From positions 5,952,001-6,016,000 of the forward strand of contig NC_060024.1 in NCBI RefSeq assembly GCF_021134715.1: 64,000 bases of DNA, in the 5' to 3' direction. Position 1 is the stretch's first letter; each line of letters begins with the position of its first letter. A program made the translations under genes and the position numbers. Shown here piece after piece: positions 1 to 62,749 of this stretch. Source of the stretch: Daphnia pulex. Lineage: Eukaryota > Arthropoda > Branchiopoda > Diplostraca > Daphniidae. The notes beneath the pieces are model-generated. The model was not told the origin of the DNA, ran no database searches, and worked only from the letters and a program-made list of their open reading frames with translations.

Positions 1-3000
1 GCGATTGCGTGCAATCCGCAATCATTGGGGAGTTGTTGTTGGCAGGTAACATTTTGGTAATAAAAAGAATTTTCCTTTGGTCTTAGAAGCGCTGATATAC
101 ATCCGACGACGTGGTCACTCGCTGTATCTCCCAAGCTATCGAAAATGGAGACAAAGTCGTCTCCTTTGCGTTTTGACGCCACAATCCAATGGTCTTGACC
201 ATCGTGGATAATTTGTATCCAGGTTTCAGAAGTAGAAGCTGGAAAATTCAAATCCCATCCGAGCGTAGCATCAAACAACCCTCCTACATAAGGAAACTGC
301 ATTTTGATCAGCATCATAGCAGCATTGATTTGGGGAGATTCAAGCCACTGTCCTGCCACCGTCACATTTTCAATGTCGGCTTTTGACAGAATTATGTTCC
401 GGTATCCACACTGTGATCCCCGTGAGTGATGGCTATGAATTGGGTTCTGAAAATGTAAAAGTAGGTAAATAATTATCCCAATAAATACATTTAAAAATGA
501 TTTATTATACCGTCGTGTTTAGGAATAAAACATCTTCATCTGATGATTTTTCTAATGATTCAACGAGATTAGAGTTTAGATTGTCCCAGCATAAAGACGG
601 CGTCCCATCCAAATCATGTGGCCGAGGTCTCTTTCTCCCGGTTTTTGACGATATCTTAAATAGCCAAGGATCAGAAGAGAGATCTTCAAGACGTTTTTCC
701 TGGCAAATTCTTGGAGATGTTGGAATTACTACGGAATCTTGCGACGTTTGGAGTGAATCTAGCGAATCCGAAGGGAAAGTTCTTTCATTATATAGCAAAC
801 GATTTATCCTGGGATCCAGCTGATGGTAATAGAAACTCCCATTATTTTTTTGAGAAGGTACAAGTGAATGTTGGCGTCTTCCGGGATCTACTGGAATGAT
901 TGTTTGGGTAGAATAAAGCTCATCATCTAACGGAATACCAAGATTTTTCAAATCAACGCAAGACAATCCCGCCTTTTCTAGTAAACGATCTAACGAACTT
1001 GTTCTTGGACGAAATGGCTTCGGAGATCGTGATCGGGACCTAAAAATAGAAAGAAGTGTGATTTTGAAAAGCAAGCATGAAGGCATTTTTTTTTTATAAC
1101 AGACTATATGCCTATTTACCTCAACTTAGAAAGTGATTTTGTCCGTTGAGGACTGCCAAATATGTGTGCAATTTCTTTTTTTCTGAAAATTTCTTTGACA
1201 ACCACAATATCGTCATCTGATTCAGCCGGCTGATAGGAAGGCTTTTCTGCAGTTACATCTTCTTCGTTATTCACACTGATTGATCGGGATGGAGGGTTCA
1301 AGTGCCAAATCATGTGTTGTGGAATTTTATTTGTTTCATCGCTACCTATTTAAGTTTCAAAAAATGCATTGATTACATTTTGGATCTGAATGAAAGGTAA
1401 ATTTTAATATATATAGGTAGCCTCTTGCCTATCGACGGTGTAGATGAACAAAAAGAAGTTGAGCTGGAAATAGAAGTATCAGATTGTAAACTTTGTTGGC
1501 TTCCACCAGGCTTCCCGTCCGAATTATTCAGAGAATTTTCTTGAACTTGAGGCTCCACAGCAATATTTTTAACTTCTGCCTCCACAAAAAGCTCAACTGC
1601 GTCTGGGAAAATGTCCATTGGAATGATAAAAGGTTCGTCTATCGGTGGCATCCCTATTTCAATTAAAGATACAGTTGGGTCCATTCTATCAACACCGGGG
1701 TCGTAGTCGGCCTTTGAATGAAAGCCTTCGCGATCAAATGGGACGATTCCGGTCTGTCGAAAACCAGCTGTAATGTTGATAGGGTTAGCAGCTAGAGGAT
1801 AAGATTTGCTAACGATATCAGGAATGTCATAAATGGACATGGTTTTGCCAGGATTGTTAATCATCCATGCTGAAGCAGCGCTGCTATTAAACTTCTTCAT
1901 TGGGCTATAAACCGACACATCCAGTGGCTGCAACCTATGAGAGCAGTGCGCGGGGAATGACAGGAGATTGACGTAGTTTTCTTTTGCGATGTTCAACGCG
2001 TTGATGGATATGGGTGAAGAGTGATTACCAAGAAGCAATATAACTGGTCTTTCCTTGCATGGACGAACGAATTGAACGAAATGTTTCATATAGAACTCCA
2101 TGCTGGAATCATTATTCATCCATCCAGATTTGTTGGCAGTGCCTGCACATACCATAGGCTCCCCATTACGAAAGTGGACTTTGAAGTTCACTCTAAGTCA
2201 AATAATAAATTAATCGTAGCCTACAAGGAACTGCTGAAATATACAAAATTACCTCGGGAACACAAAAACGGGGGGGATAGTGTTTCCAAATGCTGAAACT
2301 GCGCAAACAACAGTTACTAGAGTCCCTCTCTCTGCTGAAACAATTTTTCCTCCTAGTAAAGAAATACCACGACTGATTTTAGATAGGCATATTCAATAAA
2401 AGGATAAAAAATAGTCTTCTAACCTATATGCTTCTGGCCACGTCGACAAATTATCTTTTCAGGTGTCATAACAGTAGTAACTCCAGTCCCATCCATGTTC
2501 CAGACACAATCAAGTGAGATGTTTTCTCTTTTCAATAGTCTCTCATAATTATCAAAAAATGTGTCAATGTTGCGTTTGTTAAACGAAGAGGTTCTGGCCA
2601 AGGAGGTAGCTTCAGGTTTTCTGATTGATAAAGTATTGTGTCTCTTGAGAAATGAACTGAACCAATGTGGTCCAGCTAAAGATTTTTCAATCCAGTTTGG
2701 TGGCATTTTGAGATTCATTTTAGTTGCAAACTGAAAAGCTAACTTCCTTACGTCCAGAGGGGAAAGGCCATAATAAATCTCTGCTGATTGATGGAGATAT
2801 TGAACTAACATAGTCTCCTCTTCATCTGTGAAAAACTGCTCGACAAAAGGTTTACACTTATTAGTTCAATATGCTTGGTCTATACATGCAACACTTAATT
2901 TTATTGTTACCTGTCGTAATCTTGAGTAACCATATTTGGGTCTTAAACTACTAGTATTACGTCTTTCTTCTGCTCTATTCTCCGTTTCCAGCATAGTTGA

Positions 3001-3180
3001 TAAAATGTCTTTTTTCTTTTTGTCAATGTATCGTCCCAAGCTACTTCTTGAAATATTAAACAAAATTCCAACATGGGTAATTCTTTTTCCTTCTTTCAAA
3101 ACCATGTCAACTGCTCTTTCAATAATATCAACTGGAGTCTTTCTTCTGTTAGTTTTTCTAACGTATTTTCTCGTCATCAT
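1..3180 (-). CDS. pogo/Tigger-like DDE transposase fused to a Ulp1-like cysteine protease (3' end beyond window)
   Basis: Exons on the minus strand: 3180-2911, 2835-2424, 2352-2253, 2192-1429, 1345-1120, 1039-511 and 446 to the window edge. All junction phases agree, giving about 915 residues so far. Exon 1 holds a psq-type helix-turn-helix and exon 2 a CENP-B-type DNA-binding region ending in WNMDGTG (first catalytic Asp, about residue 205). Exon 3 encodes SAERGTLVT and FPR, typical of pogo/Tigger DDE domains. Exon 4 has LLLGNHSSP where the family has an Asp in place of the Gly (about residue 316), and keeps LQPLDVSV with a likely third Asp (about 352). A Ser/Asp-rich, probably disordered linker follows. 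The last exon reads DHWIVAS, IFDSLG and QQQLPNDCGLHAI, the His, Asp and Cys motifs of C48 (Ulp1/SENP) peptidases. The 1429/1345 intron needs a GC donor. The transposase is probably inactive; it may be a domesticated fusion or a decaying element. Confidence 0.8.
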
Positions 3181-3183
3181 CTA

Positions 3184-4075
3184 AAAAAGATAAAAGAGAA
3201 GATTTTGACTTGGCTATTAACCAGAAACAGGCCAACTTAAAAACGGCCAATCTACCTAAAGGGTAGGTATCATAGCATTTTTTTTCAAATTATACTTACA
3301 TATATAAATGAACACTATAAGAAAACACTATTTGATTAAGAGATTGCCTTTCTGAGCCGATTGCTAACACTCCGTTTTAACAAAATACGAAACAAATACT
3401 GATTATAAAATGCAAACTGTTCAATGCAAAATATTCTTGATTATTTTTAATTTAGAAAACCTGTCACGTACCGGATTGAGAAACTCAATAACCATGCATC
3501 AGTGTTTTCGATGTTAGCTCGAATTTCAACTCCAGGAACAACACGCGGATACAAATATCATAATAGACCAAAACTGGATAGTTTTTCTAAAATATGATCT
3601 AAAGAAAAGCTGTTAAACAGAAATAGAATTCATTGGTGATTTATTCCTATTGAATTACGGTAGGCCTATGTACACAGTTTAGTTTACACGCCAATACCTG
3701 CTATTTAAAAATGAAAAGACTCATGTAGGCCTATATAATATGCTACAAAACGCGAACTGCTTATGGACCCTCAGCCGAGAGCTTCGGCTCTCTCTCTTTT
3801 CCATCTTTTTTTTTCTCCACACATTTTCCAAAAGCAAAAGATCTTCACTGTGGGGATCGGTTATATTATATCGCACATTTATATTGGCACAACGCAATTG
3901 CCAAAAAATTTATCCACTAGAAAAGCGCAAGTAGCCTAAGCCATATCAACCCCGTTATTTTCTTTTCTTTTTTTCTTTCTGTAATTTGATCCTATCCTAT
4001 CCCGTTGGGGCCGTCCAATTATCCTGGCTAAATACAGGTTGTTACTGTAGTGAAGGGACCTCGACGGACGATGCT
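3184..4075. other. non-coding AT-rich stretch upstream of the transposase fusion
   Basis: No convincing ORF. Two copies of the palindromic TAGGCCTA word lie near 3660 and 3725. The sequence just upstream of 3180 would hold the promoter of the fusion gene, but no clear TATA box stands out. Confidence 0.5.
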
Positions 4076-5287
4076 CAATAGGGTTGGTGCATGAATAGGG
4101 GAGAGGGGGGCTAGTTGGCAAAGTCACTTTTTGTGAATTTATTTGAATTTTTTGACCGCACGTTTTGCAAAATGAATGAATGAATGAGATTCAGATTTCA
4201 ATTCTCTATGAATTGATCGAATTTGTTTACAATGTTCATTTACACGAAATTGTGAAATTGAGAAAAACTGCAAAAAAAAGTCTGCCAACTTGCCCCACCT
4301 ACGGGGTAAGTTGGCAAGTGACGATTCTCCATTGCTCAAAAATTTCTAGGTCGAATTTTGAAAACTTGCAACTCAGCATCTTGTGAGAAATCTGCATGCC
4401 AACATGCCCCACCAAATTTCTGTCAACTAACCCCACAGGGTGCTTTTCAAACAAATAAATTTATAACTATATCACTTTTTAATGTACAAATGTCGGGTTT
4501 CTTTTAAAAATAAGACAAACATTAATTCTTGTTTGCTTGGGTTTTCTGACATTCTTAGAGTTTTATACTATGAGAAAAATGAAAAGTGCTGAGAGGCCCA
4601 AAAAAAACTTTGTGCCGTTTTTTTTTTCTTTTTGCTATAACTCCTGTTGGGGAAGTCGTATACTTTTGAAAATTTGTGTGAGCAATCTGGGTGTTGTTTT
4701 TCATATTTGGTGAAAAGGCTTGATTTGTTTTGGTCTGTAAGGGGTCTAAATAGCAAAATGCCAACTTACCCCACCTGCCAACTAGCCCCCCTCTTCCCTA
4801 AGGGATTCGATTGAAAAAAATATTATTAGAATCAGTTTTTAACGCTGATTCTCATGGTATTTTTTTTATATTTTTAAAATAATTTCTTCAGAGCATTATC
4901 TGTGTTCAAAGTTCAGTTAGGCTCCTCCCACTTCAAAACGGACCCCCCGCCATTTTTCCTTGAAATGGGATGAAGTTTGCTCTTTTTTCCCCCCTTTTCA
5001 CCCTTTTTCGTGCTGCCTATACCCCCTCTTTTGCCCTTAGGGCCGAAAGGCGAAAGACGAAAAGGGTGAAAAGGGGGAAACTTCATCCCATTTTAAGGAC
5101 CGCCCACCAAAAATGGCGTGGGGTCCGTTTTAAAATGGGGGGAGCTAATCTCAACTTTGAAGTGAGATTAAGGGGGGAAATTATTATTTTCAAAATATAA
5201 AAAAAATACCATGAGAATCAGCGTGAAAAACTGATTCTAATGATATTTTTTTCAAACGAATCCCTTATTCATGCACTAACCCTATTG
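4076..5287. repeat. foldback (long inverted repeat) element, interrupted by a MITE
   Basis: The left arm starts CAATAGGGTTGGTGCATGAA and the right arm ends with its near-perfect reverse complement at 5287. The arms continue inward for more than 200 bp each and meet near 5010-5050, between a pyrimidine-rich left side (CCCCCTTTTCACCC) and the matching AAAAGGGTGAAAAGGGG on the right. The left arm is broken at 4096 by the separate MITE at 4098-4798; removing it restores symmetry with the right arm. No coding capacity is seen. Confidence 0.85.
4098..4798. mobile_element. TA-flanked MITE, GGGGAGAGGGGGG family, nested in the foldback element
   Basis: The termini are inverted repeats: GGGGAGAGGGGGGCTAG on the left and CTAGCCCCCCTCTTCCC on the right. 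The element is bordered by TA at 4096-4097 and 4799-4800. The matching place in the intact right arm of the host palindrome has a single TA, so this is a true target duplication. That suggests a Tc1/mariner-type transposase acting in trans. A second copy in inverted orientation lies at 35582-37548. No transposase ORF is seen. Confidence 0.85.
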
Positions 5288-15258: not shown

Positions 15259-15292
15259 GAATTCATTGTTTTGTTTAAGTAAAATAAATGAT

Positions 15293-52055: not shown

Positions 52056-52137
52056 GCAGTTGTGGCCGAGTGGTTAAGGCGATAGACTTGAAATCTATTC
52101 CTCTCTGAGGGCGTAGGTTCGAACCCTACCAACTGCG
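52056..52137 (+). tRNA. tRNA-Ser (UGA anticodon)
   Basis: 82-nt cloverleaf with the long class II variable arm (CTCTCTGAGGGC). The acceptor is GCAGTTG with CAACTGC, the anticodon loop CTTGAAA, and the T-arm TAGGTTCGAACCCTA. It is the only plus-strand member of the local tRNA-Ser group. Confidence 0.95.
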
Positions 52138-58695: not shown

Positions 58696-58833
58696 TCCTC
58701 TCATAGCTCGAAACTATAGGATCGTTAACATAAAACACGCGCAATTTTAATTCATTCGTTAGTCAACTGTAAATTCTCAGGCAATAATGACTTTAAATAA
58801 GACTAGTAATTACTTCCAAACACGAAAAAACCG

Positions 58834-58915
58834 CGCAGATGGTAGGATTCGAACCTACGCCCTCAGAGAGGAATTGATTTCGAGTCAATTGCCTTAACCA
58901 CTCGGCCACATCTGC
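58834..58915 (-). tRNA. tRNA-Ser (CGA anticodon)
   Basis: Class II cloverleaf with acceptor GCAGATG and CATCTGC, anticodon loop CTCGAAA, and the same long variable arm as its neighbours. Confidence 0.95.
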
Positions 58916-59138
58916 TTGTATGTGAGCAGAGCTCCCATACAATTTCCAAAATTTTCGGCAAGAAAAAACAAACAAAACAAACATGCAAACTTCGGTGTGA
59001 AGTAGGAAAAGTTGTTGATTGTGATACTTGATGCAAAATATATTAGCCTGAGGAAGCGACGAAATCGCTTAATAGTTCAACTTGAAACAGTGCATAAGTT
59101 TTGCCTTGGGTTTTGCATGCATTGCAAAAAAAATGATT

Positions 59139-59220
59139 CGCAGTTGGTAGGATTCGAACCTACGCCCTCAGAGAGGAATTGATTTCTAGTCAATCGCCTT
59201 AACCACTCGGCCACAACTGC
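59139..59220 (-). tRNA. tRNA-Ser (AGA anticodon)
   Basis: Class II cloverleaf with acceptor GCAGTTG and CAACTGC and anticodon loop CTAGAAA. Confidence 0.95.
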
Positions 59221-59423
59221 CGTGACTATTGAAAATGATTTCGCGTAAAAACCCAAATCCAACATATTTCGACTGAGGAACATATTGTTACAAACCTGTG
59301 TATCCCACAATTCGCGTTGCTAATTTGCGTAAGAAAACATTCTAGAGTAATTCTGACCTTTTGTAAAAGACTGTTCTCAAAGTTTTTTTTTTTAAATTCA
59401 ACAATTCGCAAAAACAAAAAATT

Positions 59424-59505
59424 CGCAGATGGTAGGATTCGAACCTACGCCCTCAGAGAGGAATTGATTTCGAGTCAATCGCCTTAACCACTCGGCCACA
59501 TCTGC
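59424..59505 (-). tRNA. tRNA-Ser (CGA anticodon), second copy
   Basis: Nearly identical to 58834-58915, with GGCGATTGACT instead of GGCAATTGACT in the anticodon stem region. Confidence 0.95.
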
Positions 59506-59710
59506 TGATATAACTCTGTTTCGCTCAAGAGTTACAATACCTGTGAACACCTGAAGCAAATTTCGTCTTAGTGTTTCTCAAATTGATGTGGCCTATAATG
59601 CTCTCAGAAAAATATTCATTCTTGAACTGGAGAATCCAATTTATCAACGGTTGGAATATTTTTCATCCAGCAAACTCTGAAAATGAGTGTTTAAATTAAT
59701 ATGACAAGAG

Positions 59711-59863
59711 CGGGGGTTGGCAACTCCCCAGAATCTTCGTACACCCTGGTCCGCCCTGGCCAGAATCTCCCTATCTCTCCTCTCATAGAATCTTTCGGAA
59801 TCTCTAGAATCTCTCTAGAATCCCGAATCTTCGTACACCCAAGTTGTGAGTTGCCAACCCCCG
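59711..59863. mobile_element. 153-bp MITE with a perfect 8-bp target duplication
   Basis: Termini CGGGGGTTGGCAACTC and GAGTTGCCAACCCCCG are exact inverted repeats. GACAAGAG flanks both sides (59703-59710 and 59864-59871). An 8-bp duplication points to hAT, P or Merlin mobilisation. Inside, ATCTTCGTACACCC occurs twice in direct orientation. Confidence 0.9.
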
Positions 59864-59871
59864 GACAAGAG

Positions 59872-61055
59872 GACAATAGTTGGTCACATCTTAGTTCAAT
59901 CACAATTATACTTTTCCTCTCTCTTGTTCATTTTGGCTATTGCGAAAAACTTATAATAGTTGGGCATAATAAAAGAAATTTGTAAATGGACGCAAAGGTA
60001 AGGTAAAAATAATAAAATATCTAGAAGTGGCATAAGAGAAGTTGACTGTTGACTATAAAACACGCAAAAAATAATTAATCCATCCTAAATTTTTTCATAT
60101 CCTAAAGACCGTAACGAATATAATGAAAAGAATGTAATTTTTTTCAACATTTTTTTCACCTTCGCATCTTGTCTGTCGATACTCGATAAGCGATATAGGG
60201 GGAGGGCCGGCGGAGTTTATTCCGGGTTTATTATTTCTGATTACAATTAACCCACGGATGAGTGTTGTAGCTTTCCGGCATTAGGCTACTCGATGTTGTT
60301 ACCGACATACCGACTACCAATTGCAACCAAATCAGCATTTATATAGAACTATCGCGGCCGAGTAGTGGGCGGTGCTGAGATGTCTTTCTGGTCCGCTGTC
60401 GGATCGGTTATTCACAAAAACATTTGACGTGGTGGTGGTTAACTGGTTATGTCGTCGCCCTGGTCTTTTGACTGTTTTGTCGCTGTATATTATATATCTT
60501 TTTCCAGGAAGAAATATACGGTGTCCCGCGGGCACGCCACACGCAAGCGCACCCGTGTTTCAGGGTCCCGAGTCTCTTGTAAAACATCAAACAGACGGAG
60601 AAATATATATGAAAAGGGATTGTTATTTTTACGTAAGGAACAATAATATAAGCGGTATTTCCAATGATGCGGTTAGGTGCAGGGGTGAGAACATTTGTGG
60701 CATATAAACACTGTGCAATGAAATCCCGGAATTGATTTGAGACATTTTGAATGGCCCGCGCTTTTTCTTTTTACGGAATAAGGCGAATTGATGGGATGCA
60801 CTGCTGCTGTGTCCCGGGGAAGATGGTCGTGCAGGCGGGAGAAATATAATGGACGTAATCTCGTCATGTGAACCGACAATGTGGTGTAGTAACCATTTCA
60901 AAGGCGTCTATTACAGAGATCAAAATAGCGTGCATTTTAAATTGCGCGCTATACTGCTGGGAACGTACGTCAACCCAATCGAAATAATAAAAGAAACGCG
61001 CGCCAGATTTTTGAGATTTATGAATTGAATTTTATTTTGTCAGATGAGTTTACTG
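59872..61055. other. intergenic, no supported gene
   Basis: ORFs of up to 111 codons overlap on both strands near 60330-60900 but show no recognisable domain or splice structure. Confidence 0.4.
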
Positions 61056-61123
61056 TCATTTATAGAAGATGACCGTCAGGTATTTATTCACACACCAGCA
61101 GTAGAGGTATATGTCGGTATGAT

Positions 61124-61875
61124 TTAATAACGTCCGTTGCCGCTCTGAGCTGGACCGGATTGAGCCGGAGCATACGCCTGCTGTTGCTGGGCAGGAGCAG
61201 CGAAGGTCTGTTGGGGAGCAGCGAAGGATTGTTGTTGTTGGGGAGCAGAGAAGGTCTGCTGTTGCTGGGCGGCAGGAGCGAAGGAGTCGGTCAAAGGTGC
61301 CGAAGCGGATTGCTGGGCAGATTGCTGCTGGGCCGATGAAGCTGCTGCTGCTGAGGCTGTTGGGTTGACGGTGATGCAAGTGCAGATCTGCTGGGTGGTG
61401 GCCGGTGCGGCGACTCCGCTGATGAAAGCAGAGCTAGCCGATGCTGCTGGGCTGGCTTGTTGCTGCTGGCTGCTGGATTGATCAACCGGAGCGAATGACG
61501 GGCGGCTGCTGGGCGATGGGCCTTGCAATTGTTGGCTTTGACCGGCATAGGCCGGGGGAGCGCTCATCATTCCACCGAGTCCAGGGTTTCCCTGGTTGCT
61601 AATCATATCGAAAACAAAATCCATCAGCCAATCAGTGTCAAATTTTAATCTCACATTAAAAATCTACTTAGAATGTAGTTCAACTTACTGCTGGGAGAGG
61701 TACTGGCCGGAGCAGCTAGCGCTCAACATGGCACAAATCATAACGACCTGCCAGAAAGTCATATATATTAGTTAGAAACAATTCAATACGATTCTATTTT
61801 AAATTCGATTCGAGATTCGATTATAGGCTACAATAATAAGGAGTTGGTATAACTTACAGTTTTGAAGGTATTCAT
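61124..61875 (-). CDS. secreted Gln/Ala/Ser-rich protein (183 aa)
   Basis: Three exons: 61875-61858, 61747-61689 and 61598-61124, with consistent phases and TAA at 61126-61124. Exons 1-2 encode the signal peptide (MNTFKTVVMICAMLSASCSG) and QYLSQ. The mature protein is low-complexity: Pro/Gly-rich, then poly-Gln blocks and Ala/Ser runs, with repeated QQQ.FAAPQQ modules and only two Cys in QQICTCITV. A TATA box lies upstream. The composition resembles cuticle, silk-like or peritrophic proteins; the role is unknown. A 5' micro-exon split inside the signal peptide is also seen in the 9.9-kb gene. Confidence 0.8.
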
Positions 61876-61953
61876 CTTAAATTGAGGAGTGAACTTGATT
61901 GTTGACTGAAGGACTTGTAAAGGTGAAGTGTGATATTCCAAGAAATCCGCAGC

Positions 61954-61962
61954 TCTTTTTAT
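61954..61962 (-). promoter_or_regulatory. TATA box of the Gln/Ala-rich gene
   Basis: The minus strand reads GGTATAAAAAGAGCTG about 80 bp upstream of the ATG. A TCAGTCAAC initiator-like site lies between, near 61900. Confidence 0.7.
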
Positions 61963-61969
61963 ACCCTAT

Positions 61970-62667
61970 ACTCCGCGGTCCAGCAGCAGGCGCATCACCA
62001 CCCAGCAAAAAACACGGAAAACTTTTCTTTTTTTTCCATTGGGATAGGAAAAAAGTTCAATAATCCAGGGAAAAAAACTGACCTCGTTCAAAAATGAAGT
62101 TGAGCTTTCACCTTTTTGTTTTGTTGGGCTATAAAGGCTATTGTCTCGCCGAGAGTTCGAGGTTATAGATTTTAAAATAGAATGTCCAACGATTGACCTG
62201 TTTTCTATTTAGCATTTAAAGGCCTCACAGTCCAGTTTGAACCGCTTGAGAACTAGGCCTATACACAAAACCCAAAATGCATGCGCATGTATACACCTAT
62301 ACATCGCCTATGAGTCATTAGATATACGATTATATGTACTGAGCAGGATTTTAGACTAACAAATTCCAAATAAAAGAATATGAAAGTTCAAAACTATAGA
62401 ATCCTGCTAGAATGTCGAACGCCACATACCTTCCGATGAGCAAACATACAAGTAATCACTGATTTCACTTGTGCCAGGCTGCAGTTTGTTTTCCTCAAGG
62501 AGATGCAGCCTATTCTCCCAACGTCTTCAGGTTAAAGGATATTTTCACAATGGTTTTTAGCCTTGTACGCCACTCCAATGACAGTTGTATTTGAACACAT
62601 ATTTAATATAAAGTCATAGATTAAACTATCTTCTTTCTTAAAAATAGATTCGAAAATTAAAAAGTTT
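61970..62667. other. intergenic, no gene seen
   Basis: AT-rich, with one AGGCCTATA word near 62254; no coding signal. Confidence 0.4.
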
Positions 62668-62749
62668 CGCAGTTGGTAGGATTCGAACCTACGCCCTCAG
62701 AGAGGAATTGATTTCTAGTCAATCGCCTTAACCACTCGGCCACAACTGC
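62668..62749 (-). tRNA. tRNA-Ser (AGA anticodon), second copy
   Basis: Identical in all visible arms to 59139-59220, with anticodon loop CTAGAAA and the long variable arm. Confidence 0.95.

Follow-up and report, generated by a model that had tools for sequence, protein, structure and literature searches.

We analysed a 64,000-nucleotide stretch of the Daphnia pulex genome (hereafter the window, C8:5952001-6016000, so that window base 1 is C8:5952001), at the left edge of which seven minus-strand exons form a candidate chimeric gene with one open spliced frame of 1038 codons (3114 nt, zero stops inside). The model overruns the window edge by 370 bases of the last exon, the stop at C8:5951631 included. 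Three sources with approximate breakpoints are readable in it (Table 1): an internal fragment of a pogo transposon, a partial copy of a host gene that has diverged from its parent, and the C-terminal end of a MULE transposase carrying a Ulp1/C48-like protease and a PHD-like finger. This anatomy is well supported and very probably correct. The best match to the whole chimera in the protein database was Daphnia magna LOC116925953 (P0001), with 53% identity over 42% of the protein.

Gene model and splice joins

A sequence-only reading of this DNA had proposed seven exons with fully consistent phases joining a pogo/Tigger DNA-binding and DDE domain to a C48 cysteine protease. The pogo DNA-binding and DDE region (DDE_1, E 8.7e-15) and the C48-like protease do share one open spliced frame, and all seven exons join in consistent phase without a stop; the model nevertheless departs from that proposal in that the donor of intron 4 is GC rather than GT (AG|GCAAGAGG at 1428) and the last exon leaves the window. 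The other five introns are GT-AG. An in-phase GT alternative donor was tried at 1449 and had a poor context. The phase agreement is mostly inherited from the source sequences, because introns 1-3 come from pogo, intron 5 from the host gene and intron 6 apparently from MULE. Only two joins are new to the chimera, namely the predicted splice from exon 4 to exon 5 and the point within exon 6 where host sequence meets MULE sequence.

Table 1 Features of the chimeric locus (window positions; pieces of different origin are listed with the exons that they supply).
Feature	Position	Strand	Remarks
Upstream piece of host duplicate	about 3350..3727 (alignment 3727-3348)	-	72% identity to C8:3792846-3792491
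Internal pogo fragment	1431..3349	-	Aligned 3337-1431, last bases to 3349 by eye; both element ends absent
Exon 1 (pogo)	2911..3180	-	Start ATGATG; N-terminal helix-turn-helix (HTH) region; exon and intron 1 common to L041/L040
Exon 2 (pogo)	2424..2835	-	Tc5-type HTH region (weak Pfam match); first catalytic Asp205; DETG invariant Glu is Gly206
Exon 3 (pogo)	2253..2352	-	DDE_1 domain begins
Exon 4 (pogo)	1429..2192	-	Remainder of DDE_1; second Asp is Gly316, His321 to Pro, third Asp352 kept
Intron 4 (GC-AG)	1346..1428	-	Predicted new splice, pogo exon 4 to host-derived exon 5
Downstream piece of host duplicate	660..1411	-	Blocks 1411-1017, 983-880, 880-660; ~82-86% identity
Exon 5	1120..1345	-	Copy of exon from host gene at C8:3.79 Mb
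Exon 6	511..1039	-	Host-derived RS-rich start to ~660; then MULE-derived linker ~645-511, GRKRPRP motif
MULE-derived segment	1..645	-	33-bp match 645-613; 471 to window position -343; covers intron 6 and Ulp1-PHD exon
Exon 7	446..1, on to C8:5951631	-	Ulp1/C48-like protease, PHD-like finger, stop

Pogo-derived exons

We searched the D. pulex genome itself (G000; 133.2 Mb, 13 contigs) and obtained 105 matches to the pogo part. Window positions 3337-1431 were 82.7% identical in DNA to the copy at C8:4.27 Mb (L041) and 82.3% identical to that at C8:2.47 Mb (L040), introns included, with introns 1-3 common to both copies; beyond 1431 there is no further match. L041 carries a frameshift in exon 2; its pogo frame continues through a basic stretch and a PHD-like finger of its own, and the element has short inverted ends (at 2155 and 5011). 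Because L041 continues to its own finger and inverted ends, the window holds an internal pogo fragment only. The two L041 ends have no counterpart at window 3349 or 1431, and inspection of the longest 25 of the 119 inverted pairs in the 10 kb gave no convincing pair of terminal inverted repeats.

DDE_1 (PF03184) scored above its curated Pfam cut-off (55.2 bits vs 22, residues 239-375), whereas HTH_Tnp_Tc5 (12.4 bits) and HTH_Tnp_4 (11.7 bits) were both under theirs; the latter region nonetheless aligns with the pogo copies. The catalytic DDD triad is broken, reading Asp205, Gly316 and Asp352. The replacement of the second catalytic Asp by Gly in LLLGNH had been recognised in the sequence-only reading, and two more invariant residues are gone as well, which brings the lost DDE residues to three: E206G, D316G and H321P (the His of NHSSH), whose equivalents are invariant in the aligned relatives (70 + 50 rows). 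A simple pattern count had given the second-position Asp in 112/120 relatives, the rest being K, L, G or unmatched; it is superseded by the alignments, which list this Asp as invariant. The transposase looks dead, and the losses fit lost transposase function followed by decay or a new role.

Other pogo-related sequence lies nearby. At window 4096-4801, ~900 bases upstream of the chimera, there is a ~706-bp element resembling a miniature inverted-repeat transposable element, the ends of which resemble the L041/L040 terminal repeats (GGGCTAGTTGGC core). A further diverged pogo copy (C8:5938220-5939103, 53-68% identity) lies on the opposite strand ~12.5 kb from the chimera, and among the matches listed C8 is the contig richest in pogo (18/60 5-kb bins).

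Host-gene duplicate

The counterpart of exon 5 and of the greater part of exon 6 is a host gene at C8:3789506-3792179, with protein identities of 74%, 71% and 58%; the search of the genome with exons 5-6 gave five matches, two of which were the window itself. P0121, a protein from a metagenome, shares 97% identity with this host gene, and Pfam revealed nothing convincing in P0121. We had also considered exons 5-6 as a pogo linker, which was ruled out, since the pogo match ends at 1431 and the exons match the host gene instead. Intron 5 is common to the chimera and the host gene. Host homology flanks the pogo fragment on both sides, so that the pogo piece sits inside the host-gene duplicate, where it replaces ~230 bases of host sequence.

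The boundary between these two pieces bears on the possibility that the locus comprises two neighbouring genes, namely a pogo-derived gene and a host-duplicate/MULE gene made up of exons 5-7 with its own start. If intron 4 were retained, exon 4 would read past the donor to a TAA at 1375-1373, ~53 bases on, and give a pogo-derived protein of 533 aa; moreover, an ATG occurs early in exon 5, and each half is open alone. However, only ~20 bases separate the end of the pogo match (1431) from the start of the host match (1411), hence there is neither a host promoter nor an upstream host exon between the halves, and exon 5 retains a splice acceptor at 1346, requiring an upstream exon. We consider two separate genes quite unlikely.

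MULE-derived Ulp1-like protease and PHD-like finger

At C2:5607423 lies a MULE transposase (L046) with whose C-terminal end exon 7, together with the end of intron 6, shares 68.5% DNA identity; in protein, exon 7 was 60% identical to this C-terminus. L046 scored above cut-off for PF10551 and for C48 (24.5 bits), with sub-threshold matches to PHD (19.8 bits, cut-off 24) and SWIM. It belongs with L047-L049, the frames of which are broken in this exon, to a group of MULE-SWIM transposases ending in a related Ulp1-PHD exon; the search of the genome with the Ulp1-PHD exon gave 58 matches. The MULE contribution to the chimera starts within exon 6 at ~645, where the GRKRPRP motif lies. With regard to possible gene capture of the Pack-MULE type, in which MULE terminal repeats surround the captured pieces, L046 and L048 match the chimera region only over the linker and Ulp1-PHD. 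Of the parts of such a MULE transposase, the window protein has linker, Ulp1 and PHD only, and lacks the MULE domain and the SWIM finger. Intron 6 appears to be MULE-derived as well: its acceptor context is as in the MULE copies, and in-frame stops occur there in L048 and L049, though L046 reads through the intron 6 position, where its donor would be GC.

A C48 protease with His, Asp and Cys motifs had been read from the sequence. The motif residues are indeed present in order (His853, Asp870, Gln904 and Cys910, by position the active-site residues, with roles as in Ulp1), the His and Cys regions align with Ulp1-like chains in the Protein Data Bank (PDB), and the relative L046 passes the C48 cut-off; the chimera itself, however, matched Peptidase_C48 (PF02902) at residues 846-929 below the cut-off of 20.7, with 17.1 bits for the whole protein and 19.7 for the C-terminal part. 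A sequence search of PDB with the C-terminal part gave weak matches to an ULP-domain protein (E 0.003), OtDUB (E 0.02), an Ulp1-like SUMO protease (E 0.03) and a PHD finger (E 0.6), and a five-row family profile, three rows of which were partial, matched the Ulp1-like SUMO protease 6dg4 at E 1.5e-5. The zinc ligands of a C4HC3 finger are present at residues 977-1029 (CxC, CxxC, HxxC, CxxC). The PHD matches in PDB were weak (E 0.01-0.09), and in Pfam the window protein was unmatched by PF00628 (PHD) at E 1, with a weak zinc-finger match at 996-1032. Folding the portion of exon 7 inside the window from its sequence alone gave an uninformative model (pLDDT 33).

Elsewhere in the genome, three equal-scoring Ulp1-PHD copies (C3:130364-131062, C5:263877-264575 and C9:160457-161155; 37% identity to the window) lie 130-264 kb from the starts of their contigs, each with a 263-aa open frame and one TAA within the match. 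At C4:8097191-8153176, C48 matches recur in a cluster, and some of them lie in open frames 656-785 aa long.

Uniqueness of the combination

We grouped matches within 5 kb into loci; as the searches score best candidates only, the counts are lower bounds. There were at least 59 pogo loci and at least 50 Ulp1-PHD loci, and among the matches listed the two occur within 10 kb of each other only at the chimera. None of 32 PF02902 matches in the genome, a set that leaves out the window's own protease, lay within 10 kb of a pogo match. The combination is thus single-copy in this genome, among the matches listed. Each half occurs apart elsewhere, as separate elements; the sequence-only reading had named such a finding as one that would refute its fusion, and to that extent it applies.

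The whole-protein database search returned 387 pogo relatives, of which the best 120 were examined. Among these, C48 was found in none at E 0.01 (OTU in two, UCH in one), a simple pattern hinted at a few more OTU-like motifs, and a PHD-like tail was recognised by pattern in 88/120. The C-terminal 522 residues had two matches in the protein database, P0121 and P0122 (which by eye overlaps P0121), neither of which shows Ulp1. Residues 720-1038 gave no match in the predicted-protein database at E 0.001 among 1278 candidates, a search that could miss exon-sized predictions. In the open papers searched, the pogo-Ulp1 combination was not found, and neither 'protease' nor 'PHD' occurs in the main text of two surveys of pogo elements.

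These results bear directly on the idea, put forward in the sequence-only reading, that a pogo/Tigger transposon family captured Ulp1 and moves, or moved, with it as a unit. Pogo proteins with an OTU protease between DDE and a PHD-like finger do exist (P0118, P0048), which lends the idea some precedent. At this locus, however, the Ulp1-PHD exon derives from the MULE-SWIM-Ulp1-PHD family, and what is present of pogo is an internal fragment that lacks terminal repeats and both element ends, flanked by host-gene sequence inside the duplicate; its DDE residues are lost, a second copy of the combination was not found among the matches listed, and the 120 pogo relatives scanned held no C48. Capture by a pogo transposon is therefore not upheld, and we give it very little credence. 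As a candidate, a mobile pogo-Ulp1 element was rejected on three counts: no convincing terminal inverted repeat pair among those inspected, missing pogo ends, and a single-copy combination.

Frame preservation and selection

In the exon blocks aligned between host gene and window, 6/6 internal indels were multiples of three, vs 0/2 in intron 5 (DNA level; not counted is a single 1-base gap that closes a block just as the following block begins). We simulated neutral decay with half of the substitutions as transitions and an indel rate taken from the pogo introns and the 5-prime stretch. The probability of an intact whole frame was 4.9e-4 at 2% divergence and 0.02 at 1%; for the 600 host-derived bases it was 0.03 at 5% divergence, 8.4e-4 at 10% and 6.9e-5 at 13.7%, the last value being about half of dS, the synonymous divergence, from the host gene. 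Under this model the open frame would be beyond chance.

Substitution ratios were estimated for each part. The window pogo branch gave a nonsynonymous divergence (dN) of 0.075 and dS of 0.226, or an omega (dN/dS) of 0.33 (95% bootstrap 0.23-0.48). Omega for host vs window was 0.38 over 70 codons and 0.57 over 100 codons (pooled difference p 0.006), with dS of the host-derived exons from their parent of about 0.25-0.32. For Ulp1-PHD vs MULE omega was 0.18, with dS saturated, and the MULE pairs L046-L047 and L048-L049 gave 0.86 and 0.89.

A mosaic would offer another account of these data: pogo, host-duplicate and MULE fragments joined by chance or break repair, young or decaying, with a frame that is still open and no functional fusion protein. 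Truncated pieces, the absence of pogo terminal repeats and a combination that is single-copy among the matches listed are what such a mosaic would leave, and a young join at 1% neutral divergence would be intact with a probability of ~0.02, younger joins more often. The two mobile pieces nevertheless share orientation and frame, 1038 codons are free of stops despite the dS that separates the host-derived exons from their parent, all six internal indels counted are in frame, and the omega of the pogo branch is 0.33. We regard the mosaic as possible, though on balance doubtful.

Interpretation

The explanation that we favour is a one-off chimeric gene, assembled inside the diverged partial duplicate of a host gene and transcribed as a functional fusion. 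It is the leading reading, with a probability only about even with that of the alternatives. An internal pogo fragment supplies exons 1-4, with a DNA-binding HTH region and a DDE domain minus catalytic residues. The host duplicate contributes exon 5 and the larger share of exon 6, the end of which comes, like exon 7, from a MULE transposase of the SWIM-Ulp1-PHD type. With intron 4 spliced as modelled (GC-AG), the product would be a protein of 1038 aa, in which the pogo DNA-binding region may tether the predicted Ulp1-type cysteine protease and PHD-like finger to chromatin. The tethered protease might then strip proteins at these chromatin sites of SUMO, ubiquitin or a similar modifier, as its domains suggest. 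Transcription and splicing, a function as a domesticated gene, and a cleavage target are all steps that we infer from the sequence.

Several observations weigh against a functional fusion, and some of them favour the mosaic. The predicted join depends on a non-canonical GC donor at the sole pogo-host splice; the matching donor of the host gene, 8 bases further on, has likewise turned into GC in the window, and its use would not keep the pogo frame (frame by hand). At codons agreeing in L040, L041 and L042, the window carries 15 nonsynonymous and 7 synonymous changes, vs 2 and 13 on the L040/L041 stem (Fisher p 0.002), a surplus at conserved codons that reflects relaxed constraint or new selection. 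The omegas cover not only the period after fusion but also earlier ones, in which the pogo part was a live transposon or the host part an unfused duplicate, as well as change on the host branch, where some of the in-frame indels may also have arisen. Lastly, no ortholog of the chimera was found in the protein database, which is a weak negative since length limits could hide exon-sized predictions.

Within the fusion reading, the protease half may be under selection, and a domesticated DNA-binding SUMO/ubiquitin protease, as the sequence-only reading had suggested, is possible though unproven. A more specific form, which we think rather unlikely, would be a lineage-specific domesticated pogo/host/MULE gene whose pogo region brings a putative deSUMOylase/deubiquitinase and a histone-reader-like finger to DNA sites, possibly pogo copies with related terminal repeats.

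If the fusion is real, the locus would illustrate modular gene birth clearly, every breakpoint being readable: duplicated host exons would link the DNA-binding region of one transposon class to a SUMO-type protease taken from a second. It also corrects a trap, in that splice phases that are consistent across a locus may come from three parents and are alone no proof of one gene.

Other features of the window

Four tRNA-Ser genes (CGA, AGA, CGA, AGA) lie on the minus strand at window 58833-62749. A tRNA-Ser (TGA) lies at 52056, and two tRNA-Ile (AAT) at 15292 and 40921.

Comparison with known systems

Chimeric genes with transposase parts and Ulp1 proteases within transposons are both already known. 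PMC2836005 reports Ulp1 for transposases of Ginger1 and Mutator, and Ulp1 together with PHD for Ginger1-9_HM. The MULE and Ginger1 transposases, represented in D. pulex by L046-L049, resemble the chimera in a C-terminal Ulp1 followed by a PHD-like finger; the chimera differs in having no MULE domain, integrase domain or SWIM, its Ulp1-PHD being joined to pogo and host sequence instead.

Among domesticated chimeric pogo genes, CENPB, POGK and POGZ likewise have pogo parts fused with extra domains; these are dimerisation, KRAB or zinc-finger domains, whereas the chimera would carry a host-gene piece and a cysteine protease and is known from one genome. In SETMAR, CSB-PGBD3 and KRABINER, the host-transposase join is made by splicing. 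These three combine transposase and host parts in a single gene (PMC12062965), whereas the parent of the chimera is a truncated host duplicate, and the chimera has a transposon-derived part on either side of its host piece and is known from sequence alone.

A similar arrangement in pogo-type proteins is that of P0118 and of P0048, the latter from Patella caerulea: as in the chimera, a protease lies between DDE and a PHD-like finger. The OTU match of P0118 is above the Pfam cut-off, and that of P0048 is weak, though its UniRef name is OTU domain-containing; the GDGHC pattern also occurs in P0023, P0033 and P0036. P0118 and P0048 differ from the chimera in that their protease is OTU rather than Ulp1, their aligned DDE residues are kept, and their finger is the pogo family's own.

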